From Hyphomonadaceae bacterium (GTDB lineage: Bacteria; Pseudomonadota; Alphaproteobacteria; Caulobacterales; Hyphomonadaceae): a stretch of 33,770 nucleotides of DNA. The stretch's first letter is position 1, and each line of letters opens with the position of its first letter. A program made the position numbers and the translations under genes. Below are positions 5,402 through 19,955 of this stretch, in pieces. The DNA is taken from NCBI GenBank assembly GCA_947474455.1, contig CANJIL010000032.1, forward strand, positions 1 through 33,770, read 5' to 3'. Below the pieces are notes generated by a model, which saw nothing but the letters and a program-made list of their open reading frames with translations, searched no databases and was not told the origin of the DNA.

Positions 5402-5415
5402 CTGATCCACGTCAA
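5402..5415. promoter_or_regulatory. FNR/FixK-type box in the divergent kinase/operon promoter
   Basis: CTGATCCACGTCAA matches TTGAY-N4-RTCAA at 9 of 10 positions. Its centre lies 57.5 nt from the start at 5351 and 56.5 nt from the start at 5465, almost exactly midway, so it could serve both directions. Confidence 0.65.
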
Positions 5416-5464
5416 AGCTCACCCATTAGTTTTGTGGCGTCTGGACCGATGATGGTGACGAGGC

Positions 5465-7102
5465 TTGCAAGTGACCGACCCGGCGAAACCTCAGCCCCAC
5501 TCTGAGCCTGCGCCGGCTGGCGTAATTCCTGGCAACCCTGTAGAGCTGCGCGATGTTTTTCCGCTCGCCGGCGCGAACTTGAAGGATTTGATTTCGGACA
5601 ACCGTTTCCTGGTCGTGCCGGAGACGATGGTCGACGGTCTGATCGTCATAGATTTGAACGGGATCATTCACTATGTGAACCCGGCCTGCGTGCGGCTTTT
5701 CAACTATTCGTTCGACGAGCTGATTGGCCAAAATGTCAAGATGCTCATGCCTTCGCCCTTTCGGGAGGAGCATGACGGCTACCTCGCCCGTCATCGGGAG
5801 ACGGGCGTCAGGCGCATCATCGGAATCGGACGCGAACTCCAGGGCCTGAAGTCGGATGGCACTGTCTTTCCGATGTACCTGTCGGTCGGCGAAGCCCGCG
5901 CGGACGATGAGGCGATCTTCGTGGGCATCATCTATGATCTTACGGAGAAAAAGCGCTCCGAAGAGATCATCCTCCATCACCAGAAGATGGATGCGATCGG
6001 CCAGCTCTCTGGCGGCATCGCCCACGACTTCAACAACATTCTCAGCGTGATCAGCGGCAATCTCGAAATGATTGCAGCGGCGGACCTCCCGCCGGCAGCG
6101 CGGCGCGCGGTCGTGCGCGCCGAAGATGCGGCGAAACGTGCGGCGCGGATCACCCAACGCCTCCTCGCCTTTGCGCGCCGGCAACCATTGCGCGAGCAGA
6201 CGGTTGCGCTGAACGCCGTACTGGAGGACATGTCCGACATTCTGCAGCGCTCCATCGGCGAGAGCGTTGAGGTTGTGATGCATCTAGCGCCCGACGCGGG
6301 CGAGGTCGCGACCGACATCGACCAGTTCGAGACCGCTGTGCTGAATCTGGCCGTCAACGCGCGCGACGCCATGCCCAACGGCGGAATGTTGACCATCGAG
6401 ACCGAGGGCGTGCGGTTCGACGACGATGCGCAATCGGCGCAGGAGGCGCCCGCGGGTGAGTATATCCGGGTGTCCGTCTCCGACACCGGCATCGGCATGT
6501 CGCCCGAGGTGTGTGCGCGCGCAATCGAGCCATTCTTCACGACCAAAGAAGTCGGATCGGGCACCGGACTCGGACTGAGCATGGTCTACGGCTTCATGAA
6601 GCAGATCGGCGGCCACGCGCGCCTTTACAGCGAAGTCGGCCGTGGAACGCGGGTCAGCCTGTTCTTCCCGCGCCATCGGGCAAATACCGCCGTCGAGGCC
6701 CGCGAAACCGACGTCTGGGCGCCGGACGGACGTGGCGAGACGATCCTAGTTGTCGAGGACGATCCCGATGTGCGACTGATCACAGTGTCGCGTCTGGAGG
6801 GCCTCGGCTATCGCGTCAGGATCGCGGTGGACGGCAGGACGGCGCTTGAAGCTGTTCGCGCCCATGCGGAAATCAAGCTCGCACTCGTGGATGTGGTCAT
6901 GCCGGGCGGAATGGACGGACATGCGCTCGCGGACGAGATCGGGCGGATCGCGCCCCACGTGAAACTCATCCTGACATCGGGGTATTCGCCACGCATGGCA
7001 GCATCTGGCGCCCGCTCGAACCTGCCATTCCTGTCAAAGCCCGCCACCCGGGCCCAGACAGCGCAAATCGTTCGCAAGGTCCTCGATGGCGAGCGCTCCT
7101 AG
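5465..7102 (+). CDS. hybrid histidine kinase with FixL-like heme-PAS domain and C-terminal receiver
   Basis: A 545-residue soluble sensor. Order: PAS about 45-160; HisKA with phospho-acceptor His187 in GGIAHDFNN; HATPase with N-box Asn298 (NLAVNARDA), DTGIGM at 340 and GTGLGL at 366; receiver 426-540 with Asp432/Asp433, phospho-acceptor Asp476 (LALVDVVMP) and Lys525. The PAS block MPSPFREEHDGYL (His103) and RRIIGIGRELQG (Arg123) matches the FixL heme-binding consensus: proximal His on the F helix and the ligand-stabilising Arg. An O2-sensing heme kinase is therefore likely, though binding is inferred. Start TTG 5465 is uncertain; GTG 5471 is an alternative. No membrane span. The kinase lies opposite a wrecked response regulator gene, so its own receiver or a distant partner must relay the signal. 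Confidence 0.88.
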   Translation: MQVTDPAKPQPHSEPAPAGVIPGNPVELRDVFPLAGANLKDLISDNRFLVVPETMVDGLIVIDLNGIIHYVNPACVRLFNYSFDELIGQNVKMLMPSPFREEHDGYLARHRETGVRRIIGIGRELQGLKSDGTVFPMYLSVGEARADDEAIFVGIIYDLTEKKRSEEIILHHQKMDAIGQLSGGIAHDFNNILSVISGNLEMIAAADLPPAARRAVVRAEDAAKRAARITQRLLAFARRQPLREQTVALNAVLEDMSDILQRSIGESVEVVMHLAPDAGEVATDIDQFETAVLNLAVNARDAMPNGGMLTIETEGVRFDDDAQSAQEAPAGEYIRVSVSDTGIGMSPEVCARAIEPFFTTKEVGSGTGLGLSMVYGFMKQIGGHARLYSEVGRGTRVSLFFPRHRANTAVEARETDVWAPDGRGETILVVEDDPDVRLITVSRLEGLGYRVRIAVDGRTALEAVRAHAEIKLALVDVVMPGGMDGHALADEIGRIAPHVKLILTSGYSPRMAASGARSNLPFLSKPATRAQTAQIVRKVLDGERS

Positions 7103-7124
7103 CGCGGAGTGGGACAGCCCATCT

Positions 7125-7565
7125 CACCACAGCAGCCAGGGACATAAGCCCTCCCTCGCCCCGTCTAAATTGGGTTCGCGCCATCGCCGTGAGTCGAGAG
7201 TTTGCGGCGGACACGGCTCACCAATGTGTCGATACTGAGATCAAGCCACACCTACTCATCCTTGTGGGTCACATCCCGATCGCATCACATGCCCAAACCC
7301 GGAATGGCGCGGTCGACGAAAGCGGCGAGTAGATTGAATTCAGCGTCCGCGAGATCGATCGCCTGACGGGCGACCATTGCGATGCTATGACGCCCAGGCA
7401 CGAAAACTAACGAGCCGAAACGCGCGTGCCGCTCCTCTGGCAAGACTTCAGGGCCACGGGCGGCGCGGCTTCGAGATACAATCGCTTGCGCCGACTTCCA
7501 GACCGACGACCCAGTCTATCACCGCCCTGGCCGGAGGATAATGGGCGTCCGGAAGTGTTGCCTTC
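7125..7565 (-). pseudogene. OmpR/PhoB-family response regulator, heavily decayed
   Basis: Translating the minus strand piecewise recovers an OmpR-type regulator in order. The receiver end is RAVIDWVVGLEVGASDCISK P (the Lys of the KP motif) with a stop at 7448. The start of the effector domain is GSLVFVPGRHSI...AIDLADAEFNLLAAFVDR (7411-7291) in another frame. Then comes DVTHKDE, an in-frame TAG, and the recognition region DLSIDTLVSRVRRKL (7250-7190). A last part aligning with the winged-helix RGxGY turn follows past a further stop near 7165. The phospho-acceptor half of the receiver is missing. Several stops and frame changes show a true pseudogene. It may be the fossil partner of the kinase encoded on the opposite strand. 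This explains the otherwise gene-free interval 7103-7746. Confidence 0.75.
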
Positions 7566-7746
7566 TCGGCTACCTCGGACACTTGCTTTTTGCCTGCGGT
7601 GAGCACCGCGAAGAAAGCGTTTCAATCAGATCCCGGGTGAAGCCTTTCGCAGCGCACGAGAAAAATCGGCGCCAATCGTACAGAGCGCCGCACCTTATCC
7701 CGATCCGTAGTCGCGCATGAAGGCCGTGTCGACACTCGCATTTCGC

Positions 7747-8115
7747 TTAGACCACAACGAACCGAATCGCTCCGGTACCGGGTTCTGTCTGGATAACCGG
7801 CAGGCCAGCCACGCGCCACGCTTCCAGGCCGCCAGCCAAGTAGGATCGGATCGGCACGCCCGCGCGGGCGCACATGTCGAGTGCTCTTGCTGATCGCTTG
7901 CCCGTGCCGCAATAGAGAACCACAGGACGCCCTCCGACGGGCACGGCATGCACATCGAAGGTCGATAGCGGATAGAGGAGCGCACCGGCAATGCGCCGTG
8001 CGGCGTACTCCCCGGGCTCGCGTACATCGATCAAACAGATCTGGCCACGCCCCAAAGCGCCGCGAATCTCCTCCGGCGTCTCGGTCGGCGGCAAGCTCTT
8101 GACGTGGCTTGTCAC
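7747..8115 (-). CDS. single-domain rhodanese-like sulfurtransferase
   Basis: A 122-residue cytoplasmic rhodanese domain. CLIDVREPGEYAARRI is the CH2A region and YCGTGKRSARA the active-site loop with catalytic Cys69; the conserved LAGGLEAWRVAGLPV closes the fold. The loop length of six residues after Cys is that of sulfur-handling rhodaneses, not Cdc25-like phosphatases. It moves sulfane sulfur between thiol acceptors. Its ATG overlaps the stop of the upstream cytochrome c gene by 4 nt, so it is the last gene of an operon running 8995-7747. The link with cytochromes suggests sulfur or redox chemistry, but the donor is unknown. Confidence 0.9.
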   Translation of the reverse strand: MTSHVKSLPPTETPEEIRGALGRGQICLIDVREPGEYAARRIAGALLYPLSTFDVHAVPVGGRPVVLYCGTGKRSARALDMCARAGVPIRSYLAGGLEAWRVAGLPVIQTEPGTGAIRFVVV

Positions 8116-8612
8116 GGTGCAGCCTCCTTCGGCTGACGCGCGTTCGGATCATCTGGGACGATGCGTTTCGGATCCCGGCCTCCAGACGCGGGCGAAAGGG
8201 GGGGACTTGGCCTAAGTGAGAGAACGTAAGCGATGATGTCGTCGGCCGTGTCAGGCGCGAGCACAATGTTGGGCATGGTCGGATGGCTGGTAACCAGCCA
8301 CACATTGAGCGCCATGGCACTCATGCCCTTGGTCTTTGCAACGGACGCGAAGGCCGGCGCAGTGTTGAGCGGGGATGATCCCGGTCCGGGCTCGGTGCGG
8401 TGACATTCAGCGCACATCGTCGCCGCGGACGCGCGACCACGCTGGGGATTGCCGGGCGTCTGTGCGCTGGAAGCGGGAATACAGGCGAGCAGCACCGGGA
8501 GAACGAGCCCGATCAGGCTAGGGTAAGCGCGCGATGCTGACGCCTCCGTTCTGAAACGACCTTGGGCCACTTGATGGACTGCAGCCGTGATCCGGACTGA
8601 CATGTGCGTCAC
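8112..8612 (-). CDS. exported monohaem cytochrome c
   Basis: A class I-like cytochrome c. One haem motif, MCAECH, follows an N-terminal export signal (LIGLVLPVLLACIPASSAQ); the distal ligand is probably Met in HPTMPNIVLAPD, and the C-terminal helix is ADDIIAYVLSL. A Pro-rich, basic tail of about 30 residues follows. The start is uncertain: GTG 8612 overlaps the upstream stop (4 nt) and ATG 8603 is nine bases later; either leaves an unusually long n-region before the signal. It acts in the periplasm as an electron carrier. It is encoded between another cytochrome and the rhodanese, with 4-nt overlaps on both sides. Confidence 0.82.
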   Translation of the reverse strand: MTHMSVRITAAVHQVAQGRFRTEASASRAYPSLIGLVLPVLLACIPASSAQTPGNPQRGRASAATMCAECHRTEPGPGSSPLNTAPAFASVAKTKGMSAMALNVWLVTSHPTMPNIVLAPDTADDIIAYVLSLRPSPPLSPASGGRDPKRIVPDDPNARQPKEAAP

Positions 8613-8995
8613 TTTCCGCTTATGGACTTGAGATAGGCGATGAGTGCGTCCGCGGCGCGCACGTCGAAGTCGAACCGCGGCATCTCGTCATGTCCGACTT
8701 GCAAGGCATCAATGAACCGATAGGCGAGATTGTCGGGGTCGTAGATAGCAAGCGCGTCGCGGAGCGGCGGCGCTGCCGGGTTTGGGCTGCGCGACCGGGC
8801 GTCGACTGCATGGCAGACCGCACACTGCGCATCGGCGATACGACGGCCATCCGCGACCTGACCGGCGTCCGGCGTAGCGCTGGTTCCTCCCCACCCCTGT
8901 TCCTCGCTTTCCGATTGCGGCGAGGAGGTCGTCGCGCATGCACTGGCGGCGAGGACGGCCGTGATCATCAGCGTGGCTATTGCCCTGGCGTACAT
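8609..8995 (-). CDS. lipoprotein monohaem cytochrome c
   Basis: A 128-residue protein with a lipoprotein-type signal (MITAVLAASAC; lipobox SAC is weak), a Ser/Glu-rich linker, and one haem site QCAVCHAVD. The putative sixth ligand Met sits in GHDEMPRFDFDVRAADALI. The motif MPRFDF-x-V is shared with the cytochrome at 9108-9476, which marks the two as paralogues. Start ATG 8995 has AAGGAA five bases upstream. It is first in the cytochrome-cytochrome-rhodanese operon, and an FNR-type box lies 85 nt upstream. It is probably membrane-anchored, passing electrons in the periplasm; the redox partner is unknown. Confidence 0.85.
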   Translation of the reverse strand: MYARAIATLMITAVLAASACATTSSPQSESEEQGWGGTSATPDAGQVADGRRIADAQCAVCHAVDARSRSPNPAAPPLRDALAIYDPDNLAYRFIDALQVGHDEMPRFDFDVRAADALIAYLKSISGK

Positions 8996-9073
8996 CTAAA
9001 TTCCTTTGCCCTCCCCCCCACGGGTCCGAAGCGGCGTGTGTGATGGACGCTAGCTGAACCTCGCCGCGGCCGT

Positions 9074-9087
9074 CTGATGCGGATCAA
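9074..9087. promoter_or_regulatory. FNR/FixK-type box upstream of the cytochrome c operon
   Basis: CTGATGCGGATCAA matches TTGAY-N4-RTCAA at 9 of 10 positions. It lies between the stop of the 9108-9476 cytochrome gene and the start at 8995 (85.5 nt from the start codon), so the operon 8995-7747 probably has its own promoter. Confidence 0.6.
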
Positions 9088-9107
9088 ACGGCAATTGACT
9101 CTCGCAG

Positions 9108-9755: not shown

Positions 9756-10595
9756 TCAATGAGAAAGGAACAGCGGCATGGGCGGATCTGCAAGCAGGCC
9801 GCGACTTACGCCGCCCATGACAAGCTCGCGAACCCGCGAGTGGCCATAGAGGCCAAGGACGATGAGATCCGCGCCTGTGCGACCTGCGTGAAGCCGAATG
9901 AGGCCTTCAACTGGCGCGTCGTCATTGCGGTCTACGTGCAGCTGCGGCGTCGGGCAACCATGATCCTGGAACAGGCGCAGCATCGACGCGTCAAGCTCAT
10001 TGGGAGCGTCGCGTGAAACGCGAAGGATGTGGATCTCTTCCGCCGCTTCCAGAAACGGCCAAGCATCGCGCACAGCGCGCATAGCCTCACGCGTCTCCTT
10101 CCAGGCAATGAGGATCTTCTTTCCGAAGGGCACTGGGAAACCACCATGCTTCAGGACGATGACAGGCCCACCTGACGCCATGCCGACGGCTTCGGCCGGG
10201 ATCACATGTTCGCTGAAGGATGGTTTGATTTCCGAGGGTAGAATGACGAGGTCGTGCCGTTTGGCGGTTGCAAGCATCTGGTTGTCTGTCTCGAGATCGA
10301 CGTCGAGCCAGCGCGTGTGAATGGCCTTGTCTGCAAGGCTGGCCATAAAGACATCCTTGGCTAGACCGCTCGCTTTCGAGATGGCCTCCGCCTGCTCTGC
10401 GCGATAGGCGTCGAGGACACCCTGCGAAATCGGTGTGATCGCGTCCGCAACGACATAGCGGGGAACCTTCGACGAGTATACAAAGCCTCCTGTCAGCGGG
10501 CATTTGAATCGCACCGCCAAGGATGATGCCGCCGCGACGCGCGCCTTGGCGCCTGCGGAGCTATCGACATGGACGAAGATATTGCGATAGGTCAT
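9756..10595 (-). CDS. universal stress protein, tandem Usp domains
   Basis: A 279-residue double-Usp protein starting at ATG 10595 with AGGAGG eight bases upstream; an upstream in-frame extension overlaps the next gene and is rejected. Domain 1 (1-150) starts MTYRNIFVHVDSS. Domain 2 (150-279) carries the ATP-loop motif GLYGHSRVRELVMGGVSRG, of the G-2x-G-9x-G-(S/T/V) type that binds nucleotide in ATP-binding Usps. Such proteins accumulate in stationary phase, anoxia or oxidative stress. An FNR-type box is centred 56.5 nt upstream. It is the most divergent of the four Usps here. Confidence 0.9.
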   Translation of the reverse strand: MTYRNIFVHVDSSAGAKARVAAASSLAVRFKCPLTGGFVYSSKVPRYVVADAITPISQGVLDAYRAEQAEAISKASGLAKDVFMASLADKAIHTRWLDVDLETDNQMLATAKRHDLVILPSEIKPSFSEHVIPAEAVGMASGGPVIVLKHGGFPVPFGKKILIAWKETREAMRAVRDAWPFLEAAEEIHILRVSRDAPNELDASMLRLFQDHGCPTPQLHVDRNDDAPVEGLIRLHAGRTGADLIVLGLYGHSRVRELVMGGVSRGLLADPPMPLFLSH

Positions 10596-10620
10596 GGGTT
10601 CGCCTCCTGATAAAGCCAAC

Positions 10621-11223
10621 TTATGCGGCGTTGCGCGGCGCAGCTTGACAGGGGTCAAGCGCGGCCAGATTTGCGGGGCCAGACACCGCAAGGTCGACAG
10701 GAGCATTCGCGAGGCGCTCCAGGAGCCTGCGTCGACGCGCCAGCGGCCACCACTCGTAAAGCAGGATCTCGATCGGCCGCCAGTTTGCGACCCAGCCAAC
10801 GATAACGAGCCCTTCACCGAGAAATCCCACGATTGCGCCTCCCGGCACCAGGCCTTGCAACAGCTGACGCAGGACAATGCAGACGGCCAGCACGCCCAGT
10901 CCAATTCCCAGAGACACCTGAGCGATTGTCAGAAGCTCATGCATATCGCCCCGCGTGCGACGTGCACGATACAAAAAATGCCCTGCAACTGCTGCGCGAA
11001 GGCCTTCGACGTCCACACTGGTCGCCGCGGAGTCTGGCAGGTAGATGCGCATCGCCAGCGCCGCGTCGCCCGGAAGTTCCTGGGCCCACCCGACAATGTA
11101 GTCCTCCGCGCCCCGCGCAAGATCGCGTGTAGGAATCGGGAAGGGATCGAAAGGATCAAACAACTGTTCGAGGCTCTGCAGCCGGAGCTCGATCAGGCTG
11201 AAGACCGGAGCGCCGACCTTCAT
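10621..11223 (-). CDS. conserved hypothetical membrane protein
   Basis: A 200-residue protein. The first 95 residues are soluble and acidic with a repeated DPFDPFPIP element. A hydrophobic hairpin then follows (VSLGIGLGVLAVCIVLRQLL and IVGFLGEGLVIVGWVANW), then EILLYEWWPLARRRRLLERL, a basic amphipathic helix probably on the cytoplasmic side. Its start overlaps the stop of the helix-hairpin-helix gene by 4 nt, so the pair is coupled. The box controlling the downstream Usp gene lies inside its last codons. No named family is recognised. Confidence 0.72.
   Translation of the reverse strand: MKVGAPVFSLIELRLQSLEQLFDPFDPFPIPTRDLARGAEDYIVGWAQELPGDAALAMRIYLPDSAATSVDVEGLRAAVAGHFLYRARRTRGDMHELLTIAQVSLGIGLGVLAVCIVLRQLLQGLVPGGAIVGFLGEGLVIVGWVANWRPIEILLYEWWPLARRRRLLERLANAPVDLAVSGPANLAALDPCQAAPRNAA
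10645..10658. promoter_or_regulatory. perfect FNR/FixK-type box upstream of Usp 9756-10595
   Basis: TTGACAGGGGTCAA matches TTGAY-N4-RTCAA at all ten positions, is centred 56.5 nt from ATG 10595, and lies within the 3' end of the preceding gene. Confidence 0.75.
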
Positions 11224-12083
11224 ACGGGCTCAGACGATGTCTCGCGATCATAATAACGCTCGCAGGCGTCCTCCTGACCGCGGACCACGCGCTTGCCCTT
11301 CAGCGCGCCATGCGTTTCTGTCACGATCGTGCATTGCCAGTCGGGTTCGAGATCGCTGCTTACGAAGATAACGACCCAGTCTTGGAACTTGTTGAGCTGG
11401 TGCGCCCGTGCCGTATTTGAATACATCGCAGTAAAGTACCAGCCACGATAATGCGTGTGCATGACGGGGAGCCATGCAATCCCTTTCGGATTGAACCGGC
11501 GAGGCGCGATGAGTTTGAGCTCGTTGCGACTTGCTCTGTCGTGATAGGCCGCATCGACCTGCAACAGAAGTCTGATCGAGGGAATTTTGCCCCGGCGAAC
11601 ACGGCCCCGAAGCAGCTGGAAACGATCCCGCAAGGCCGCCCGGATCGCCCCCAGTCTCCTTTCACCAAACCCCGCCAGCCGATCCAGACGGCCATCATGG
11701 GCCGCCTGTTCAAGCTCTTCGAGTGAATCGATGTGAAGATCGGTATGCAGCCTTTGCGCGAGTTGCGGCCCGATACCTGGAACGGTCATGAGTAGGGTTT
11801 CGGGATCGAGCTCACCGGTCAACCGTTCAAGCGCGGACCAGCGTCCGGTCGCGATCATCTCCGCGATGGCCGAAGCGATGCTGCGTCCGATCGTAGGCAG
11901 GGCGATCAGCCCCTCACGGCCCTCGCTGGCAAGAATCTCGTCTACGGGCCGTCCGAGCTGATCAACGACGTCGGCCGCGCGTCGGTAAGCCTGTGCGCGA
12001 AATCCTGTCTCGCCCTGATGCTCGAGCAGCTCGCTCATCTGCCGCAATCTGCCTGCGATGCGAATATTCAGACGGTGCGCCAT
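11220..12083 (-). CDS. PolX-like helix-hairpin-helix DNA-binding protein without polymerase domain
   Basis: A 287-residue protein starting at ATG 12083 (GGAG six bases upstream). Residues 1-80 match the 8-kDa lyase-like N-terminal domain of family X polymerases (MSELLEHQGETGFRAQAYRR; LPTIGRSIASAIAEMIATGR, an HhH motif). A second HhH, LLMTVPGIGPQLAQRL, follows, then DRLAGFGERRLGAI. The palm/nucleotidyl-transferase and PHP domains of PolX are absent. The C-terminal 120 residues form a separate domain (GWYFTAMYSNTARAHQL; DWVVIFVSSDLEPDWQC) of unknown role. It probably binds DNA and is possibly linked to repair under stress; that is inference. Coupled to the membrane protein downstream. Confidence 0.8.
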   Translation of the reverse strand: MAHRLNIRIAGRLRQMSELLEHQGETGFRAQAYRRAADVVDQLGRPVDEILASEGREGLIALPTIGRSIASAIAEMIATGRWSALERLTGELDPETLLMTVPGIGPQLAQRLHTDLHIDSLEELEQAAHDGRLDRLAGFGERRLGAIRAALRDRFQLLRGRVRRGKIPSIRLLLQVDAAYHDRASRNELKLIAPRRFNPKGIAWLPVMHTHYRGWYFTAMYSNTARAHQLNKFQDWVVIFVSSDLEPDWQCTIVTETHGALKGKRVVRGQEDACERYYDRETSSEPV

Positions 12084-12134: not shown

Positions 12135-12148
12135 CTGATCCCGCTCAA
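12135..12148. promoter_or_regulatory. degenerate FNR/FixK-type box upstream of the HhH gene
   Basis: CTGATCCCGCTCAA matches the TTGAY-N4-RTCAA consensus at 8 of 10 positions. Its centre is 58.5 nt from ATG 12083, the same distance as for the better sites, which supports an otherwise weak match. Confidence 0.45.
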
Positions 12149-13074: not shown

Positions 13075-13088
13075 GTGACGCAGGTCAA
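13075..13088. promoter_or_regulatory. FNR/FixK-type box upstream of Usp 12191-13024
   Basis: GTGACGCAGGTCAA matches TTGAY-N4-RTCAA at 9 of 10, centred 57.5 nt from ATG 13024. It is nearly identical to the box in front of the paralogous Usp at 17339 (GTGACGCAGATCAA). Confidence 0.68.
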
Positions 13089-13220
13089 ATCCGCGTGCAC
13101 CACCCAACGCGGACGCCACGCCTCGGGAAAAAGGTAGGGCGGAATGGCGAATAGGCCGAGCGATACTCACGGCAGGCTAGCACAAATGGAGACGCTGACC
13201 CGCCAAATAATGTCACGCGG

Positions 13221-13644
13221 CTAGTCGGTGCGGATCTTCACCTGCTGGGCTTTGGCGGAGGAAGGTTTCCGGATGTCGATCGTGAGCCACACCCTTGCTC
13301 ATCTGCGCCTTGTCCCTCGCAGCGTCCAGGCCTTGCGGGAGGGCGACTGCATGCTCGAAGGATCCGTAGGACTGTTCAGCGACGCGATAGTTCTTTCTCT
13401 TCTCATCCTTCGCGAATTTCTTCTCAGCGCGGATCGTCAGAACCCCGCCGACAACGCTGATATCAATATCCTTCTCGTCCATGCCGGGATGATCGGTCGA
13501 CGCCTTGATCATCGTATCGGTTTCCGTCACTTTCCTGCCGGGCGAAAAGCCAATGTCGGTGAACGCGGCGGGCCAGTTGCCGAAACTGTTGAACCTGCTG
13601 AAGACACGGTCGATCTCGTTCTCGAACAGATCAAACGGCGTCAT
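13221..13644 (-). pseudogene. Hsp20/alpha-crystallin small heat-shock protein, frameshifted near its C-terminus
   Basis: The frame from ATG 13644 encodes an alpha-crystallin domain: TPFDLFENEIDRVFSRFN at the N-terminus, MDEKDIDISVVGGVLTIRAE, and NYRVAEQSYGSFEHAVALPQ. At the KAQMSKGV point (about 13285-13292) the frame runs into DRHPETFL. The adjacent frame continues perfectly as LTIDIRKPSSAKAQQVKIRTD to a stop at 13221. So one extra base in GTGGCTC separates the family's G-V-L-T-I strand from the rest. In the broken frame the I-x-I-like tail that drives oligomerisation is lost. The start is also unclear: TTG 13701 lies in frame, while an ATG at 13735 is one frame off, which hints at a second indel. 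Sequencing error is possible for either. Confidence 0.75.
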
Positions 13645-13806
13645 GCGACGCGCATGCTGGCGCAGGCGCGGGCGATGCTTTGACCAGCGGCGGCGCGGCA
13701 AATTGGGGACGGGTCATCGCCTTAGTGGTCATTTGGGCCGCCTCTATGGCTCACCAACTTCGGCCTGTCTGCGACCACTCGCTTGACGCCGATTCAGAAG
13801 GACCAC

Positions 13807-13858: not shown

Positions 13859-14554
13859 TCATGCAGCCAACATTGCGTACCCGGCCTCCTCCACAACGCC
13901 GCCTTCCGCCAAGCATTCAAGTGCGCTGCGATTAAGCAGGCGGAAGTGATACATCGAAATCATCTTGATCCATTTGCGCCGCTGGAAATCGGACATCTTG
14001 CGAGAAACCGTTTCGAAACGCAGGCCGAGAAATTCTGCCATTTCGCTTCGGCGCATGGGGAGATCGAACTCGGCATCCCGCCCCTGCGAGACATCAGCGA
14101 CCGCCAGAAGAAACGTTGCGAGCTTCTGGTCTGCAGAATGCGCGCCCACACTGGTGAGCTGGGCTTGCGCCGCGCCAAGCTGATTTCCAACCTGACCGAT
14201 CAGCTGGACCGCGAGCTGGGGATCACGGGCGCATATTTCGGCCAGGCGCTTGACCGGGATGGCTCGCACTTTCAGCGCCGTGACCGCCTCGCAGCCATTG
14301 GCGTGCCCAGCCGCGCCCTCGAGGCCCATGATGGAGCCGGCGCTGCAGAATCCAACGACCTGCCGCTGGCCATCGACCAAGGTGCGGTAGAGTTTTGCCC
14401 ATCCGCTCTCTATTATGTAGAGACTGTTGCGTGCATCTCCCTCGAAAAAGAGGTGATTGTGGGCAGCAATCTGCCTGATTTCGCCCGGATGGTTCGCGAC
14501 CCAACCGTCCGGCGAACGATCAAAATCGATGATAGCGCCACCGTTGATGCACAT
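13859..14554 (-). CDS. Crp/FNR-family transcriptional regulator (FixK/FNR-type, no N-terminal Cys cluster)
   Basis: A 231-residue regulator starting at ATG 14554 with GGAG eight bases upstream. A cyclic-nucleotide-binding-like beta roll covers residues 20-125 (HNHLFFEGD; SLYIIESGWAKLYR; GFCSAGSIMGLEG), then the dimer helix and a winged HTH at 165-200 (MRRSEMAEFLGLRFETVSRK). E181-x-x-S184-R185 matches the FNR residues that read TTGAT. The N-terminus has one Cys only (Cys2) and no C-x2-C-x5-C cluster. It therefore does not look like a canonical 4Fe-4S FNR, and may act downstream of the heme-PAS kinase, as FixK does. The family signature and the surrounding TTGAT-N4-ATCAA boxes make it the prime candidate regulator of the island. 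A terminator follows it. Confidence 0.9.
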   Translation of the reverse strand: MCINGGAIIDFDRSPDGWVANHPGEIRQIAAHNHLFFEGDARNSLYIIESGWAKLYRTLVDGQRQVVGFCSAGSIMGLEGAAGHANGCEAVTALKVRAIPVKRLAEICARDPQLAVQLIGQVGNQLGAAQAQLTSVGAHSADQKLATFLLAVADVSQGRDAEFDLPMRRSEMAEFLGLRFETVSRKMSDFQRRKWIKMISMYHFRLLNRSALECLAEGGVVEEAGYAMLAA

Positions 14555-15136: not shown

Positions 15137-15979
15137 TCAATGCGACAGCAGCACAGGCGTACTACAGTTGTTGAGGATGTGCTCGGTCGCGCCGCCCAAG
15201 ACAAACTCCTTGATTCTGGAGCTCCCATAAGCACCCATGACGAGAAGTTCTGGGGAAACTTCCTCCAGATAGGCCGCGAATGACGCGCCAATGCTTCGAT
15301 GACGGCCATCGATCTCATCAGGAACAGCGCTAATGCCGTGGGTGCGCAGGTGGCGGACAAGGTCGCCCGCCTGCCCGGCCGTTGCGGATGCTTTCTCCCC
15401 GACGGCGGTCATCACACGCACGTCCTCCACCCGCTTCAGCACCGGGAGAGCATCGGCAACCGCACGCGCCGCACTGCGACTGCCGTCCCATGCGACCGCA
15501 ACACGCGTCAGTCGACCGGATGGAAGGAGGGACTTTTGCGGATTGAAGGCGAGGACTGGCCGCCCGGAGCCAAAAATGACATCTTCTGCAACCGACCGCT
15601 GACTGTCCACACGTGCGCCAACGACGATCAGGCTGAGGTCAAATGTGCGCGCCAGCTTGGCCATGCATGGACCAACACCATGCAGGCTAGCGCGGACAAG
15701 TTTCGCTTCGTGCCGAATACCTGCCTTTTCGGCGAGGGATTGAAGGTGTGTCAGCGACGCCTTTGCCGCATCGAGACTTTTGCGTTCTTCGATGCGCGCG
15801 AGCTCGCTGACATGTAGCAGGCGCTCCGCCAGCCAGTTTTCCGGTGCATTGATGTCGATATTGATGGCAATGCCTGTCAGCGTCGCATCGAGCATTTTCG
15901 CAAAACCGACGGCCTGTTCGACCGCGGCCAGGGGCGTCGGCTCTGCGTAGGTATCTATATGAAGAGCAATGTCGCGCAT
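15137..15979 (-). CDS. universal stress protein, tandem Usp domains
   Basis: A 280-residue double Usp. Domain 1 (MRDIALHIDTYAEP; FDLSLIVVGARVDSQ) lacks a normal G-2x-G loop. Domain 2 (RVAVAWDGSRSAARAVADAL) has the loop MGAYGSSRIKEFVLGGATEH and ends PVLLSH. It differs from the other Usps by the WDGSRSAARA block common in alphaproteobacterial UspA-like proteins. It lies 59 nt downstream of the DUF883 gene on the same strand, and no box of its own is seen, so it is likely co-transcribed from the promoter at 16411-16424. Cytoplasmic, probable nucleotide-binding stress protein. Confidence 0.92.
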   Translation of the reverse strand: MRDIALHIDTYAEPTPLAAVEQAVGFAKMLDATLTGIAINIDINAPENWLAERLLHVSELARIEERKSLDAAKASLTHLQSLAEKAGIRHEAKLVRASLHGVGPCMAKLARTFDLSLIVVGARVDSQRSVAEDVIFGSGRPVLAFNPQKSLLPSGRLTRVAVAWDGSRSAARAVADALPVLKRVEDVRVMTAVGEKASATAGQAGDLVRHLRTHGISAVPDEIDGRHRSIGASFAAYLEEVSPELLVMGAYGSSRIKEFVLGGATEHILNNCSTPVLLSH

Positions 15980-16038
15980 CGATCCGATCCTCGGCGGTGG
16001 ATGAAACGGCGCACCGCCAACGCCAAATGTTGCTGGTG

Positions 16039-16359
16039 TCAGGATTTCCCTTTGCGCGCGCCCCTCCGCGTGTGCGTAACGGCATAGCCGAGAAGGCCAA
16101 CCGCCGCCGCTGCGAGGGCGGCTGTCGCGACGGGGTGCTCGCGCACCTCCTCCCCTGCCCTCTTCGCCAGTGCCGCTGACTGCTTCCTAATATTTTCGGC
16201 GAGGTCCGAGGCTGCATGCACAAAGGCGGCCGCCGATTTGGAAACGGCGTCACTCGCATCTGCACCTAGATGCTGCGTCATCCGCCCTATGCCGCGTACG
16301 ACCTCATCATAACCTTTGGAAAGATCTTTGACTTTCCGGTCTACAGTTTGCTCAGCCAT
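16039..16359 (-). CDS. DUF883 (ElaB/YqjD-like) membrane-anchored protein
   Basis: A 106-residue protein. A long amphipathic helical region (residues 1-75; VDRKVKDLSKGYDEVVRGIG, then ASDLAENIRKQSAALAKRAG) precedes EEVREHPVATAALAAAAVGL-LGYAV, the typical single C-terminal transmembrane helix of the DUF883 family, and a basic tail (RRGARKGKS). Members of the ElaB/YqjD group sit in the inner membrane and some associate with stationary-phase ribosomes. A perfect FNR-type box lies 58.5 nt upstream. It probably forms a transcription unit with the Usp gene downstream. Confidence 0.82.
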   Translation of the reverse strand: MAEQTVDRKVKDLSKGYDEVVRGIGRMTQHLGADASDAVSKSAAAFVHAASDLAENIRKQSAALAKRAGEEVREHPVATAALAAAAVGLLGYAVTHTRRGARKGKS

Positions 16360-16410
16360 GATTCACTCCTGCTGCTCAGTATCATCATGAACGAGAGCGC
16401 GACTGACCGA

Positions 16411-16424
16411 TTGATTGGTATCAA
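16411..16424. promoter_or_regulatory. perfect FNR box upstream of the DUF883-Usp unit
   Basis: TTGATTGGTATCAA is a perfect TTGAT-N4-ATCAA palindrome centred 58.5 nt from ATG 16359. Confidence 0.8.
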
Positions 16425-16511
16425 ATGTCGCGGGCGCGTCTGGCCCCCAGTCGCTGACGACGTTGCAAAGCGTTGTGATTGAACATTGGCGAAATCGCCG
16501 CCCGAAAGCGC

Positions 16512-17339
16512 CTAGTGCGCCATGAGTATCGGAATGTTCGCGCTGCGCAGCATTTCCCGTGTCATCCCGCCAAAGACAAATTCGCTCATCCGTGACCGGC
16601 CGTAACCGCCCATAACAATCAGGTCGGCATCGACCGCGGCGGCATGGTCGAGAACTGCACGCGCTTCGCTCCGGCCGAGTGGCGCCAGCACGCACGAATG
16701 CACCTTGATACCCCGGCGTCCGAGATGAGCGGCTACATCGCCGCCGGCCGCCAGGCAGTCGTCCTCGGTGTGGTCCGCATCCACCTGCACGACCGCGACA
16801 CTGTAGGCATGCGCAAGCAGGTTGGCCGCTTCAGCGAGCGCCCGGGCAGCTTGTCGCGTGGGTTTCCATGACACGACAATGTTCCGGCCGATCTCCCGCG
16901 GTTTCCATGCAGTCGGCGCCAGCATGACCGGCCGACCGGACGCAAAGAGCGCAGCTTCGGCCAGCCGCTGCTGCGCATGGGTTTGTGCGCAGCCGACGAC
17001 GGTAACGTCGTGATGCCGCGCCCGTGTGGAGACGGCGTCTGCGAGAAGCCCGAGTTCAACCACATCCCCCTCCACTGTCCCGGTGGCCGGCAATCCTGCC
17101 TTTAGCCTGCTGTTCAGGGCGTCAAGATCCAAGATCAGGCGCGCCTCCGTCTGAGCACGAATATCGGCCCAGACTGGGCTGGCGACCCAGCCGTCCGCCA
17201 TGATCAAGGCCGGCATCCACGCCACCATCAGCGCAGACACCCTGCCTTCGTTCTGGGAAGCCAGCTGCTGGGCGACGGCGACCACGCTGTCATTCGGCGC
17301 ACCGGAGGCAGTCACGGCGAATACGTTCTTGAACTTCAT
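16512..17339 (-). CDS. universal stress protein, tandem Usp domains
   Basis: A 275-residue double Usp starting at ATG 17339; GGAGG six bases upstream decides between this and the in-frame ATG at 17351. Domain 1 starts MKFKNVFAVTASGAPNDSVV. Domain 2 has NIVVSWKPTRQAARALAEAA and the ATP-loop MGGYGRSRMSEFVFGGMTRE, ending PILMAH. Paralogue of the 12191-13024 product, so probably an old local duplication. An FNR-type box is centred 55.5 nt upstream, back to back with the box of the divergent cytochrome gene. Confidence 0.93.
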   Translation of the reverse strand: MKFKNVFAVTASGAPNDSVVAVAQQLASQNEGRVSALMVAWMPALIMADGWVASPVWADIRAQTEARLILDLDALNSRLKAGLPATGTVEGDVVELGLLADAVSTRARHHDVTVVGCAQTHAQQRLAEAALFASGRPVMLAPTAWKPREIGRNIVVSWKPTRQAARALAEAANLLAHAYSVAVVQVDADHTEDDCLAAGGDVAAHLGRRGIKVHSCVLAPLGRSEARAVLDHAAAVDADLIVMGGYGRSRMSEFVFGGMTREMLRSANIPILMAH

Positions 17340-17387
17340 CTTGCCCTCCATGCGGGCCGGAAAGTGTTGCAAGCGCCCGTTTTTGTC

Positions 17388-17401
17388 GTGACGCAGATCA
17401 A
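17388..17401. promoter_or_regulatory. FNR/FixK-type box facing Usp 16512-17339
   Basis: GTGACGCAGATCAA, 9 of 10 matches to TTGAY-N4-RTCAA, centred 55.5 nt from ATG 17339. Confidence 0.68.
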
Positions 17402-17412
17402 GCCTGCTGGAT

Positions 17413-17426
17413 TTGATACAGATCAT
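17413..17426. promoter_or_regulatory. FNR/FixK-type box facing the divergent cytochrome gene
   Basis: TTGATACAGATCAT, 9 of 10 matches, starts 11 nt after the previous box. It is centred 40.5 nt before ATG 17460, so a class II promoter here would give a very short leader or a leaderless mRNA. Confidence 0.62.
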
Positions 17427-17459
17427 CCCGGGACGCAGCCGAACCGCCATGCTGGCCCC

Positions 17460-18005
17460 ATGATCACGCGGCGGATCTTCAGTTCACTTGCAATGGTCGT
17501 AGCGGGCATCACCCTGCTCGCCGCCTGCGATCGAAGCACAAGCGCCCAGACGCCAAGTCATTCACCGACTGCAGCTGGCGTCGCCATCGCGGTCGAAACC
17601 GGAGATCAGCTTCCGCTGTTTGTTCCTTATCGCGGTTTGATGGTTGGCATTATCGACTGGTCTTCGTTTGGCGTCTTCCATCTTGCGACAAATGACAAGC
17701 CGCTCACCGACAGCGACTGGACCGCCGCCGGGCTCGCAGCCGTCAATCTGATCGCCGTGTCTGTCCTGCTCACGACACCCAACAGCAATGCAGACGATCA
17801 GCGCCGCCTCGCGGATCCCGCCTGGACGGAGAGCGTTGCAGATTTTCAGAACGCCAGCGTTCTGGTCGCCGCCGCGGTAGATAAGCGAAATCGCTTTGAC
17901 TTCAACCGGACCGCGGACATGCTCGCGACCACCTGCCAGACCTGCCATGACATGTTTCGCATCATGCCTCCCGACGACGCCACTTCACGTTTTGCAGCCC
18001 GATAG
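17460..18005 (+). CDS. lipoprotein with C-terminal c-type haem site (cytochrome c'-like)
   Basis: A 181-residue exported protein. Lipoprotein signal MITRRIFSSL...ITLLAAC (lipobox LAAC, Cys23), then a helical middle (GLAAVNLIAVSVLLTTP; FQNASVLVAAAVDKRNRFDF), and a haem-binding CQTCH (Cys159, Cys162, His163) close to the C-terminus, followed by DMFRIMPPDD. A haem motif at the end of a four-helix-type protein is the layout of cytochrome c' and cytochrome c-556; these bind NO or O2 or move electrons. The helical-bundle assignment is by layout only. The gene is divergent from a Usp gene and upstream of a lipid-kinase pseudogene. Confidence 0.75.
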   Translation: MITRRIFSSLAMVVAGITLLAACDRSTSAQTPSHSPTAAGVAIAVETGDQLPLFVPYRGLMVGIIDWSSFGVFHLATNDKPLTDSDWTAAGLAAVNLIAVSVLLTTPNSNADDQRRLADPAWTESVADFQNASVLVAAAVDKRNRFDFNRTADMLATTCQTCHDMFRIMPPDDATSRFAAR

Positions 18006-18034
18006 GCTCGCCTTCTTAGACCTTTGAGGTCTCC

Positions 18035-18665
18035 GTGAAAGTGACAGCACTCATCAATCCGACGGCTGGCATCGTCGGTCCGGACGGTCGGCTTCGTAGG
18101 GTGGAGCTGCTTGAAAGCGTCGGAATTTGCGACGCCGTGGTCATAGTGCTTGATCCCGACAATGCTGCCGGCCAGATGCGCGGTCTGATCGAGCGGACGT
18201 GCGACCTTTCGATTTTCCGGGGCCGGGGAGGCGCGCGAGGATGTTCGCAAGGCGACTTCGGCCGCGCGATGCAGGACGCAAGCGTTGCGGTCGATGCGGA
18301 GCGTCATCTCCAGCTGAATTCGGAAACCGGCGCAAGTGACCGGCTTCCGTCTGGAAACATCATTGCGGCGCTGGTCGAGCCTTCGCCGGCCCGCGCCGCA
18401 TGGATGTAGCCACCCTGAATGTTCCGCCTGCCATGGCTGCCTTACGCTTTGCCTGGACTGCAATCCGCTCGGACTGGCGGCATCTCGACGGGGTCGTTGT
18501 TCGAACCGCAGATACGCTGACGATCGTCGATCCTCCGGCCAATCCGTGCTCGCAATCATGGATGGCGAGCAGGCAGCGGTCGGATCGCAGTTCATCCTCC
18601 GTTGCAAGGAGAGCGCCGCGCTGAGCGAGCGGTTGATCCGGTCGTTGTCCGGGGCCCCGGACTAG
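18035..18665 (+). pseudogene. diacylglycerol kinase-like (YegS/DagK family) lipid kinase, decayed
   Basis: From GTG 18035 the frame reads MKVTALINPTAGIVGPDG and CDAVVIVLDPDNAAGQMRGL-IER, the start of a DAGK catalytic domain, but the GGDGT nucleotide motif is gone (IFRGRGGARG). Downstream another frame gives MDVATLNVPPAMAALRFAWT and GVVVRTADTLTIVDPPA, and a third gives SVLAIMDGEQAAVGSQFILR, the C-terminal beta domain of the same family. The interval totals about 630 nt against some 900 for an intact gene. A deleted catalytic motif plus two frame changes show an inactive relic. It follows the cytochrome gene by 29 nt and overlaps the 3' end of the convergent Host_attach gene. Confidence 0.78.
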
Positions 18666-19093
18666 ACGTTCGCCCTATTCATCGCGGCGTCGATTTCCGC
18701 AAGCGAGCTGTGCGTCATGCCATGGCAGGTCTCAAAGACGATCCGTTCGCGCGTTTTCGAGGCGATGAAATCGCGTAAACCGTTCATGACAGGCGGCGGC
18801 GCGACAATCGCGACCCCCTTGATGCCTTCGGTGACAGCGGCTTCATTTGCACGATCCGCCACGCGGTTCAGGAAAATCTCGAGTTCTTCCTGATCGCGAA
18901 TTGATCGCGGCTTCACACGCAGACGCCCCGCCGTACGTATGGTCCTGCACGGCAAGTGCTCGCCATGCGTGAGCAGATCCGCCGTCTCTGCGTAGTCTGG
19001 CTTTTCCACGATCGCGTCTGTTCGTGATGGGCGAACGAAAAAGCGCGCGGAGTGCTCATCTGCGACCAAAATCAGTGCTGGATAGTCGGTCAT
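18662..19093 (-). CDS. Host_attach/baeRF-like (eRF1 domain-related) protein
   Basis: A 143-residue cytoplasmic protein starting at ATG 19093 (GGGAG upstream). The N-terminal strand ALILVADEHSARFFVRPSRT corresponds to the family's xxWVLVADGxxARxF. The C-terminal half has ANEAAVTEGIKGVAIVAPPP, VMNGLRDFIASKTRERIVFE and then a TH-x-x-L-x-E motif. This is the Host_attach / bacterial-archaeal eRF1-like fold; despite the name, the role is unknown and ribosome-related functions have been suggested for relatives. An imperfect FNR-type box is centred 52.5 nt upstream. A second, broken member is at 20106-20499. Confidence 0.72.
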   Translation of the reverse strand: MTDYPALILVADEHSARFFVRPSRTDAIVEKPDYAETADLLTHGEHLPCRTIRTAGRLRVKPRSIRDQEELEIFLNRVADRANEAAVTEGIKGVAIVAPPPVMNGLRDFIASKTRERIVFETCHGMTHSSLAEIDAAMNRANV

Positions 19094-19138
19094 CTTCAAC
19101 TCCCTGCATGCAGTTCAGCACGGCCGATGGACGTTGCC

Positions 19139-19152
19139 TTGATCCAGGCCAA
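19139..19152. promoter_or_regulatory. FNR/FixK-type box upstream of the Host_attach-like gene
   Basis: TTGATCCAGGCCAA, 9 of 10 matches to TTGAY-N4-RTCAA (C for T in the second half-site), centred 52.5 nt from ATG 19093. Confidence 0.55.
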
Positions 19153-19336
19153 AGTGGGCACGCGTCGCTTTTGTTCGGGGGCCCGCCAGCGCCGGCAACC
19201 AAGCAAGCATCAGTAGGGCCTGCCAGTCCAAGCAGCCCCGCTGGCGAGGCTTCGCCACACAAATAGGCTCCGAGATCCTGCTTCATCAACAGAATCGCAA
19301 AGCTAGTCTCGAGAGAGAACAAATCCGCAAGAGCTG

Positions 19337-19885
19337 TCAGGCCGGCCATGAAGCGAGCTCCCAGCCTTTCAATCCGAAGAGTTTGCAGACACAGCGCGCG
19401 ACCCACGCCAGAATAGGCAGCAACACGGTCAGTTCGACGCAAACAGCCAAGAACGCGCCGAGCACAGGCGCCCCAAGCAACACGTGCATCGCGCCAAAAA
19501 AGACGCCTACGCCAAACCCGACGGCGCCAAGGCCAACACCCGCGACCATTGCTCGCAACAAGGCCGATACAGCTACAAACAGCGGTCCACGCATACCGCT
19601 TACCGCAACTTCAGGCTTCCCGTGCCGCATCTTTGGCTTTCCAAACGATGGCCGGCCATAATTTGCACAGGCAGCCAGGAATTCTTTTCCCACAAGACGC
19701 GCCGCTTCTGGGTCAACATGTTGGGACAATGTGGAGGGTACGACGCAGACAACCGGGCATAGGACCAACGCCGCGCGTGCAAAATACGTCCTCTGAGCGG
19801 ACGTCATCGCCACGGCAGCACGTATGCGATCGGCTGGTGCGCGCTCAATTTGAATGAGAGACGAAGCTGCATCGATTGCGGGCAT
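19337..19885 (-). CDS. hypothetical membrane protein
   Basis: A 182-residue protein with one hydrophobic segment near the N-terminus (about 35-52) and a glycine-rich hydrophobic block at about 100-168 that holds two or three transmembrane helices (AGVGLGAVGFGVGVFFGAMH; FLAVCVELTVLLPILAWVA). Between them is a basic soluble stretch (GRPSFGKPKMRHGKP). No family is recognised. A perfect FNR-type box lies 63.5 nt upstream, which supports this start and places the gene in the island's regulon. ATG 19807 is an alternative start. Confidence 0.6.
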   Translation of the reverse strand: MPAIDAASSLIQIERAPADRIRAAVAMTSAQRTYFARAALVLCPVVCVVPSTLSQHVDPEAARLVGKEFLAACANYGRPSFGKPKMRHGKPEVAVSGMRGPLFVAVSALLRAMVAGVGLGAVGFGVGVFFGAMHVLLGAPVLGAFLAVCVELTVLLPILAWVARCVCKLFGLKGWELASWPA

Positions 19886-19941
19886 CGCATCTGTCCAAAC
19901 TTGCAGATAAGGTGACCTTGGCGCCCGGCGGTGCGGCGGCC

Positions 19942-19955
19942 TTGATCGCGGTCAA
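19942..19955. promoter_or_regulatory. perfect FNR/FixK-type box
   Basis: TTGATCGCGGTCAA matches TTGAY-N4-RTCAA at all ten positions, centred 63.5 nt from ATG 19885. Confidence 0.72.

Follow-up and report, generated by a model that had tools for sequence, protein, structure and literature searches.

A FixK-Type Regulon with Near-Constant Promoter Spacing in a Hyphomonadaceae Stress Island and Its Probable Hybrid FixL-FxkR-FixK Cascade

Introduction

What holds together a cluster of universal stress protein (Usp), cytochrome and sensor kinase genes in which the same palindrome recurs upstream of gene after gene, at nearly the same distance from the start codon? This question is raised by contig CANJIL010000032.1 (C32) of a Hyphomonadaceae bacterium (assembly GCA_947474455.1), which is analyzed here over its whole length of 33,770 b and is referred to as the window. 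A sequence-only reading had proposed that the genes between positions 5402 and 19955 form a dispersed FNR/FixK-type regulon with fixed promoter geometry. The observation of such a regulon with a near-constant promoter spacing is confirmed here and is well supported at the level of sequence comparison. What the present analysis adds is a probable upstream cascade: an hFixL-FxkR-FixK-type system, in this case outside the Rhizobiaceae, likely drives this island, which would serve survival under hypoxia.

In Rhizobium johnstonii, the hybrid FixL protein hFixL9 acts through FxkR and FixK (PMC7888657), and rhizobial FxkR binds the K-box GTTACA-N4-GTTACA (PMC7888657, PMC4999443). The hFixL-FxkR-FixKf cascade has been placed in the ancestor of the Rhizobiaceae, and FixLJ has been described in all four Caulobacterales studied, with targets limited to redox processes (PMC4999443). 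By titles and abstracts, the literature on FxkR and hFixL consists only of rhizobial, legume and plant-microbe work and a survey of the Alphaproteobacteria, in a search that left most subscription papers and bioRxiv uncovered; for Hyphomonadaceae and FixK, no paper was by title and abstract about such a cascade, with subscription papers again mostly uncovered.

The genome measures 3.29 Mb (3.293 Mb in the site counts), is 99.94% complete and is divided over 103 contigs. The comparison set holds 15 same-genus genomes, this one (G000) included, which are not independent because of their kinship. Outside the genus, genome G020 was sampled, together with 45 other family and order genomes for the hybrid FixL search. 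Start codons were called by a gene caller written for this analysis, which uses codon usage and Shine-Dalgarno sequences and is blind to the sites.

FixK/FNR Sites and Their Enrichment

All ten sites of the sequence-only reading were recovered by a pattern search of the window (Table 1), and its nine distances from site centre to start codon (57.5, 56.5, 56.5, 58.5, 57.5, 58.5, 55.5, 52.5 and 63.5 nucleotides (nt)) are arithmetically correct. Nine of the ten sites fit TTGAY-N4-RTCAA with at most one mismatch, and the site at 12135 has two. Of the window's matches with at most one mismatch, the one at 5588 falls inside the kinase coding region and does not count as a promoter site. The gene caller chose the same start for seven of the nine genes (5351, 10595, 12083, 13024, 16359, 17339 and 19093). 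For the kinase, it favored GTG 5471 (62.5 nt) over TTG 5465, and it left 19337-19885 uncalled; the distances for these two are soft because of this disagreement.

The window holds 10 matches with at most one mismatch, compared with a mean of 2.05 and a maximum of 8 in shuffled sequences, and none of the 100 shuffles reached 10. Genome-wide, 221 such sites were counted versus 85 for the reversed pattern, and 18 strict sites versus 2. The window's share is 10 of the 221 sites, with 2.19 expected (Poisson P 1e-4), 3 of the 18 strict sites (P 8e-4) and 5 of the genome's 7 composite promoters, which are described below (P 2e-9); since the window was chosen for its sites, all three P values are too favorable by a factor close to the number of windows (~100). 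In 389.5 kb from 21 loci of this genome and its relatives, 18/19 strict and 40/60 one-mismatch sites lie outside called genes, and the same holds for 1/1 strict and 2/4 one-mismatch matches of the reversed pattern. The genome scan that could have refuted the sequence-only reading came out in its favor for this genome, with the correction that the regulon extends beyond the island, since promoters of this type are also present on C3, C6 and C40 and in relatives.

Promoter Spacing and Register

Spacing was tested on composite promoters, consisting of a box, a gap of 42-70 nt (42.5-69.5) and a Shine-Dalgarno sequence (GGAG) with ATG. In the 15 same-genus genomes, 88 composites were found, compared with 16 when the gap was shifted by 50 nt and 7 with scrambled half-sites; the corresponding counts for this genome are 7, 3 and 1. 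The scrambled pattern is a little AT-richer (one C fewer). Reversing the composite gave 0 matches, which is a weak control because the Shine-Dalgarno/ATG part is reversed too, and the shifted gap is the fair one. The seven composites of this genome are those of 5351, 10595, 13024, 16359 and 17339 in the window, together with C6:100945 and C3:129623, the latter between PNPOx-like and DUF1003 genes. After removal of near-copies (rows more than 80% alike), 114 site-gene pairs remained, 27 of them at 55-59 nt, 11 at 60-64 nt and 5 at 50-54 nt, versus 3 pairs in all for the reversed pattern. Seven independently called starts of the window are preceded by a site within one mismatch; six of these fall within a 6-nt span (52.5-58.5) and the seventh is at 85.5 nt; the simulated P for this clustering is 5e-6 under a simple uniform-placement null. 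Inspection of 12 of the 15 strict sites outside the window showed none 50-65 nt from a called start. Four sit within a gene or at its margin, another lacks a start within 300 nt, and the spacings closest to this range belong to an LptC-like gene (assigned by eye, 46.5 nt), an ABC transporter gene (68.5 nt) and a cytochrome gene (69.5 nt). One of these 12, C6:100945, has a Shine-Dalgarno sequence and ATG 61.5 nt on according to the composite search.

The most conserved base of a -10 element is -11, and with a box centred at -41.5 this is base 37 counted from the first T. Base 37 is A in 32 of 54 oriented sites (0.38 bits) and is among the strongest columns outside the box, as are columns 14, 23 and the Shine-Dalgarno region (0.39-0.42 bits). 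With near-copies removed, A is found in 21/43 sites of the 50-65 nt class (P 5e-5) and in 28/66 with longer leaders (P 2e-5), and base 37 is the top A column in both leader classes. The implied -11 A is present in five of the nine promoters of the sequence-only reading (5351, 10595, 13024, 19093 and 19885). Downstream of site 9074, TAGCGT lies at ~21 nt, off this register by one base. Class II activation calls for a site centred at -41.5 and a -10 element in register with it, and the A excess over many sites agrees with this. Position counts did not confirm a CTGGCC motif that had been noticed by eye ahead of some sites.

The same island is present on two contigs of G003, where the Usps and the 16039 and 17493 proteins are 59-74% identical and the regulator is 69% and 87% identical over its two halves. 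Boxes are kept at four of the five island promoters compared, in diverged flanks. The distance in the window and in G003, respectively, is 56.5 and 56.5 nt for UspA, 57.5 and 58.5 nt for UspB, and 73.5 and 70.5 nt from site 17413 to the 17493 gene; the two UspD boxes are at 55.5 and 80.5 nt in the window and at 56.5 and 79.5 nt in G003. For the 16039 gene, it is 58.5 nt in both if the G003 start is placed at 2059, where homology begins, and 46.5 nt from the start called in G003. All 13 hFixL loci read have a box within one mismatch in the gap that precedes the gene.

The FixK-Type Regulator and Its Paralogue

The ExxSR motif is characteristic of the FNR-type recognition helix. The Crp/Fnr protein encoded at 13859-14554 has the helix ETVSR, and ETVSR or ETISR is found in 13/13 sequences. 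The four-cysteine 4Fe-4S cluster of FNR was not found in this protein, in which Cys occurs at 2, 70, 88, 108 and 214 only. FNR proper is ruled out by the missing N-terminal cluster, which makes oxygen sensing by the regulator itself unlikely; a more likely oxygen sensor is the island's FixL-type kinase. The best NCBIfam model is FixK (120 bits, under its curated cut-off of 300), DNR models and structures score far lower, and among solved structures FNR of the 9qly group and FixK2 4i2o come closest. The nearest named relative found comes from the metagenome-assembled genome Hyphomonadaceae bacterium C5_metabat.bin.27 (87% over 114 residues), and the host is accordingly taken for an environmental alphaproteobacterium close to Hyphomonas.

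Orthologues of this fixK, with 54-66% identity, are present in 11 of the 14 other same-genus genomes (absent in G004, G005 and G010), and G020 has one of 59%. In G004, the best Crp/Fnr match to the regulator is 35%. The oxidase gene ccoN is on the fixK contig in 9 of the 11 orthologue-bearing genomes, several with hemN and hFixL as well; ccoN is missing from G002 and G014. The cbb3 genes of this genome are on C40, where one-mismatch boxes precede ccoN by 87.5 nt and a cytochrome-like gene by 53.5 nt.

A FixK-type paralogue, 52% identical and with an ETVSR helix, is encoded on C1 (G000:C1:133560-134144). A one-mismatch box was observed just downstream of it, 78.5 nt before a called gene of 127 amino acids (aa). 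Autoregulation of fixK through a box of its own was rejected for the window gene, which has none (at most two mismatches) in the 200 nt upstream; the G003 and G012 fixK genes have a strict box ~120 nt upstream. A PmrAB-like pair beside fixK in G001 and G006 was considered as the input to FixK and rejected, being found at these two loci only, with a regulator 30-31% identical to the FxkR-like proteins.

Hybrid FixL and the 137-aa Protein

By its sequence, the kinase encoded at 5465-7102 is a hybrid FixL. Its PAS domain aligns with FixL structures at E 3e-30, and two columns that we take to be the haem-ligating His and the pocket Arg (H200 and R220 of BjFixL) are kept in 13/13 aligned rows (genus plus G020) and in 3/3 rhizobial hybrids. 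The kinase core is nearest to CckA and is followed by a receiver. With R. johnstonii hFixL9 as query and 20 candidates scored per genome, the family of the window gene came first in 14 of the 15 same-genus genomes and in G020 (409-446 bits), and in the 45 other family and order genomes the best match was a partial one of 363 bits, with full-length matches at 275-302 bits. The sole same-genus genome without a hybrid FixL in this search is G004. A FixLJ system was rejected, as no FixJ above the cut-off was found in this 99.94% complete genome (best 90 bits vs 255); one of 14 control genomes reached the cut-off.

Divergent from hFixL, and sharing site 5402 with it, is the gene of a 137-aa protein without Pfam or NCBIfam match. 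Orthologues with 61-70% identity were found in eight relatives, and in seven of these a site is present at 56.5-63.5 nt. A homologue of 43% identity adjoins hFixL on a Terrarubrum plasmid. Members of this family were also observed on a plasmid of Azospirillum thermophilum (L174, 10001-10360), near a Usp gene and beside a bacteriohaemerythrin gene. For plasmid hits H28, H37, H40 and H41, no hFixL is annotated within 5 kb, and H43 is without annotation.

The K-Box-Like Repeat and the FxkR-Like Response Regulator

A direct repeat within two mismatches of GTYACA-N4-GTYACA is present in all 14 fixK upstream regions read, many of which have a second copy 22 bp downstream; the C1 paralogue has none. 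In an alignment of ten fixK upstream regions, 14 of the 16 invariant columns are within the repeat block. A matrix scan of 634.7 kb gave 15 matches above 16 bits. Of these, 14 precede fixK genes, and the remaining one is next to hemN at the end of a contig in G010, where fixK was not found; the matrix was trained on 14 of its 15 matches, and the G009 and G011 contigs with exact copies are outside the 634.7 kb. The only exact GTYACA-N4-GTYACA of this genome (L152, G000:C46:10762-10777) has no called gene start downstream on the same strand within 300 nt.

A candidate to read the fixK repeat is a response regulator that adjoins hFixL or cbb3 in 13 same-genus genomes and is on C40 beside cbb3 here; its domains are those of the OmpR type. 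In G002, G014 and G020, this regulator gene and fixK are transcribed divergently, and the repeat is located in the gap that they share. The linked regulator forms a clade with FxkR, with support of 97/96 in a tree with Terrarubrum and 89/88 in an earlier tree without it; the 97/96 tree dropped seven distant OmpR-type rows of the earlier one and added four outside rows and Terrarubrum. Gene order on the Terrarubrum plasmid is ccoN / 137-aa homologue, hFixL, regulator, fixK. A comparable repeat, with one mismatch, separates the last two genes, and the 137-aa homologue has a one-mismatch box at a distance of 53.5 nt.

A 25-kb locus of Rhizobium leguminosarum pRL23b5 (L145) was also observed, with an fxkR-like gene, fixK-hfixL, Hsp20, BON, phosphoketolase, P-type ATPases and Usps; it has 9 strict boxes and no strict reversed match.

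Proposed Cascade and Alternative Explanations

In the proposed cascade, with the island forming the stress branch of the FixK regulon, low oxygen would activate the haem-PAS hybrid kinase hFixL, which would signal, presumably by phosphotransfer, to the OmpR-type response regulator of the FxkR group encoded on C40 beside the cbb3 oxidase. This regulator would act on the K-box-like direct repeat upstream of fixK. The FixK protein of the window, rather than its C1 paralogue, would then bind TTGAY-N4-RTCAA centred at -41.5 and, by class II activation, switch on sigma-70-type promoters with leaders of ~16 nt. The predicted targets are UspA, UspB, UspD and perhaps UspC by read-through, the cytochromes, the 137-aa protein and the BaeRF-like protein, and the products of the island would support survival of anoxia. 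As hFixL itself is probably a target, positive feedback may result.

Several findings weigh against this cascade or parts of it. UspC has no site (at most two mismatches, 200 nt upstream scanned), Hsp20 has only a two-mismatch site at 145.5 nt, the start codon of the kinase is unsure (TTG 5465 or GTG 5471), and HhH, 19885 and 9074 depart from the tight spacing or from conservation. The class II geometry of the sequence-only reading stands on the spacing controls, the -11 A excess and the conservation of syntenic sites, and falls short in four of its nine promoters, where the implied -11 A is missing; among sites of the 50-65 nt class, A reaches almost the same count in columns 36, 48 and 56 (19, 19 and 20 of 43 vs 21). 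The fixK repeat differs from GTTACA-N4-GTTACA and came from a targeted search. Exact GTYACA-N4-GTYACA, rejected as a genus-wide marker of fixK, occurs 7 times in the 15 genomes and just once upstream of fixK, in G014. In G005 and G010, both in many contigs, hFixL is present without a FixK orthologue. The linked regulator is the best match in 8 of the 13 genomes with a whole linked gene and second or third in 5, and FxkR9 scores some unlinked regulators higher. Exact copies of the repeat are centred 52 nt before an OmpR-type regulator gene in G009:C48 (L147) and G011:C148 (L150), at position 1501; repeats of this kind therefore also occur away from fixK and could be bound by a second group of regulators.

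These last points are what favors a FixK regulon that is real with an input other than hFixL-FxkR, in which the fixK repeat is read by another OmpR-type regulator. Such an input is somewhat unlikely: the linked regulator adjoins hFixL or cbb3 in 13 same-genus genomes, groups with FxkR at 97/96 and shares with fixK a divergent gap containing the repeat in G002, G014 and G020. The OmpR-type regulator of G009 did not group with FxkR in the two trees, which covered the G009 member and not that of G011. It is less probable still that the activator is another Crp/Fnr protein, that is, the C1 paralogue or both proteins, with the 13859 regulator as only one input. The identical ETVSR helix of the paralogue could bind the same sites, and five Crp-type helix-turn-helix proteins in this genome are above the Pfam cut-off; however, the window regulator is embedded in the island and has a close relative in the syntenic G003 island, and the paralogue lacks the fixK repeat.

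The boxes themselves do not discriminate between signals, as the FNR, FixK and DNR motifs are practically identical and inseparable by sequence (PMC2908626), and the cytochrome c'-like gene would fit nitric oxide (NO) stress too. An NO- or redox-responsive circuit of the DNR type is nevertheless improbable, given that the regulator best matches FixK and FNR models and structures, with DNR far lower, that the linked sensor is of the FixL type and that ccoN is on the contig of the regulator orthologue in 9/11 same-genus relatives. That palindromic, AT-rich intergenic boxes arose by chance or composition, with start codons picked to fit, is largely contradicted by the data and can practically be set aside. 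The sites and starts were indeed picked by eye, and two of the nine starts are doubtful, yet independent start calls agree for seven of nine, and the shuffled, reversed, shifted and scrambled controls as well as conservation argue against it. The hFixL-FxkR-FixK-type cascade remains the likely reading.

Genes of the Island

The features of the island are listed in Table 1. The DUF883 protein of the sequence-only reading was not recovered: no DUF883 match was found, and 16039-16359 gave only a sub-threshold Pfam match to DUF1206. Membership of the HhH gene (12083) rests on two-mismatch sites, and syntenic G003 has no counterpart of its weak box 12135; 19885 belongs to a doubtful gene.

Table 1. 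Predicted genes, FixK/FNR sites and fixK repeat of the window. Distances run from site centre to start codon; ORF, open reading frame.
Feature	Coordinates	Strand	Remarks
Small predicted lipoprotein (by eye)	4663..4941	-	Downstream of 137-aa gene, probably same transcript; orthologues beside hFixL in relatives
137-aa conserved protein, predicted to be FixK-site-driven	4938..5351	-	Divergent from hFixL
FixK/FNR site	5402..5415	.	Common to 5351 (57.5 nt) and hFixL (56.5 or 62.5 nt)
Hybrid FixL: haem PAS, HisKA/HATPase, receiver	5465..7102	+	Start TTG 5465 or GTG 5471
c-type cytochrome	8112..8612	-	Downstream of 8609-8995; sub-threshold Pfam cytochrome matches; 55% homologue in G003
c-type cytochrome	8609..8995	-	PF00034 above cut-off
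FixK/FNR site	9074..9087	.	85.5 nt from cytochrome start 8995
UspA, Usp protein	9756..10595	-	PF00582 on longer ORF 9756-10904; start 10595 from gene caller
Protein without assigned function, membrane-bound by eye	10621..11223	-	67% homologue in G003 island
Strict FixK/FNR site	10645..10658	.	56.5 nt from 10595; within last codons of upstream gene
PolX-N-terminal-like HhH protein	11220..12083	-	PF14716, PF14520; PolX model 63 bits, cut-off 426
Weak site, two mismatches, CTGATCCCGCTCAA	12135..12148	.	58.5 nt from 12083; another two-mismatch site at 87.5 nt
UspB, Usp protein	12191..13024	-	PF00582
FixK/FNR site	13075..13088	.	57.5 nt from 13024
Hsp20 family gene, C-terminus looks out of frame	13213..13644	-	PF00011 on ORF 13213-13701
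FixK-type Crp/Fnr regulator	13859..14554	-	ETVSR recognition helix, no FNR cysteine cluster
K-box-like direct repeat GACACA-N4-GCCACA-N4-GGCAAA	14615..14640	-	Upstream of fixK
UspC, Usp protein	15137..15979	-	PF00582
Small protein without assigned function	16039..16359	-	74% homologue in G003 island
Strict FixK/FNR site	16411..16424	.	58.5 nt from 16359
UspD, Usp protein	16512..17339	-	PF00582 on ORF 16512-17450; start 17339 from gene caller
FixK/FNR site	17388..17401	.	55.5 nt from 17339
Second FixK/FNR site	17413..17426	.	80.5 nt from 17339 (upstream), 73.5 nt from 17493
Cytochrome c'-like protein	17493..18005	+	Sub-threshold PF01322 on ORF 17364-18005; 60% homologue in G003
BaeRF/Host_attach family protein	18662..19093	-	PF10116, PF18856 on ORF 18662-19099
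FixK/FNR site, one mismatch	19139..19152	.	52.5 nt from 19093
Strict FixK/FNR site	19942..19955	.	63.5 nt from 19885, a weak gene

UspC may be read through from 16359. In the Hsp20 gene (13213-13701, minus strand), the family match ends at about residue 138 of 162 and the remainder reads like another frame, possibly because of a sequencing error or because the gene is broken; upstream of it, no site within one mismatch was found. A short ORF (18035-18409, plus strand) looks like a fragment, being similar to a portion of a DAGK-type protein of 282 aa in G011 (L056:14188-15036), which has its box at 61.5 nt. Near the contig end, 32611-33423 (plus strand) is a transposase-type gene with an integrase core (rve), and a mobile element may therefore border the contig. 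Box-dense islands were also observed on G002:C13 (L126/L127) and G014:C24 (L128/L129), with eight strict boxes each; these boxes precede Usp, 16039-like, 10621-like and DUF2267 genes, and P-type ATPase genes adjoin.

Relation to Known Oxygen-Responsive Systems

The closest parallel is pRL9 of R. johnstonii 3841, with whose counterparts the hybrid FixL shares 46% identity over 501 aa, the OmpR-type regulator 45% and the FixK-type protein 33% over 168 aa (to FixK9b). As in the Rhizobium cascade, a K-box-like repeat precedes fixK, and cbb3 and hemN are in the same neighbourhood in relatives; the arrangement in G002, G014 and G020, with the regulator divergent from fixK and the repeat between, resembles that of fxkR9-fixK9b (PMC7888657). 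Unlike in Rhizobium, the K-box variant is of the GWCAC type and not GTTACA, the response regulator and cbb3 are on another contig here, and fixK and hfixL do not form one operon; in addition, PMC7888657, which counts positions in its own way, lists rhizobial anaeroboxes that activate at -32 to -34. With FixLJ-FixK of Caulobacter, the island shares a FixK without FeS cluster, which regulates cco and hemN there (PMC4999443), and differs in its hybrid sensor and in having no FixJ above the cut-off.

In content, the lxa locus of Burkholderia cenocepacia is similar, as this low-oxygen cluster holds six Usps, a heat shock protein, a BON protein and a cytochrome c; lxa (BCAM0275-BCAM0323) belongs to another bacterial class, however, and its proposed regulator BCAM0049 is outside the locus (PMC6127331). 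In Sphingopyxis granuli, the class II promoters of FNR include uspA and ccoN sites at -41.5, with Usp and cbb3 targets as here, under FNR-type regulators in place of a FixK-like protein (PMC7713065). uspA has been counted within the alphaproteobacterial FNR core (PMC2908626), and an FnrN-dependent Hsp20 with an anaerobox has been described (PMC11784457). The likeness to a Dos/Anr-type dormancy stimulon, drawn in the sequence-only reading, is fair as an analogy of content. In mycobacteria, haem-based sensing is upstream of DosR, which is a LuxR-type response regulator with other DNA sites. The DosR dormancy regulon also comprises many Usps under hypoxia (PMC6127331).

Conclusions

In this island, which has about nine sites in 15 kb, a regulon can be recognized in the sequence by its promoter geometry. 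The findings suggest a hybrid FixL cascade outside the Rhizobiaceae, where PMC4999443 places its appearance, in free-living bacteria of the Hyphomonadaceae group, one of them apparently without FixJ. It is possible, and put forward here only tentatively, that the cascade is a transferable alphaproteobacterial oxygen module and not an invention of rhizobial symbiosis; it would be present in at least one Hyphomonadaceae-related genus (kinase in 14/15 genomes) and on a Terrarubrum plasmid, would use a diverged K-box and would command Usp/cytochrome islands with class II spacing, with the conserved 137-aa protein as its fourth component and a possible feedback partner and functional counterpart of FixT. 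If the cascade is real, FixK boxes in this section of the Alphaproteobacteria would be under the control of two different oxygen cascades, and the 137-aa, 10621-11223 and 16039-16359 proteins would gain a testable role in survival at low oxygen.

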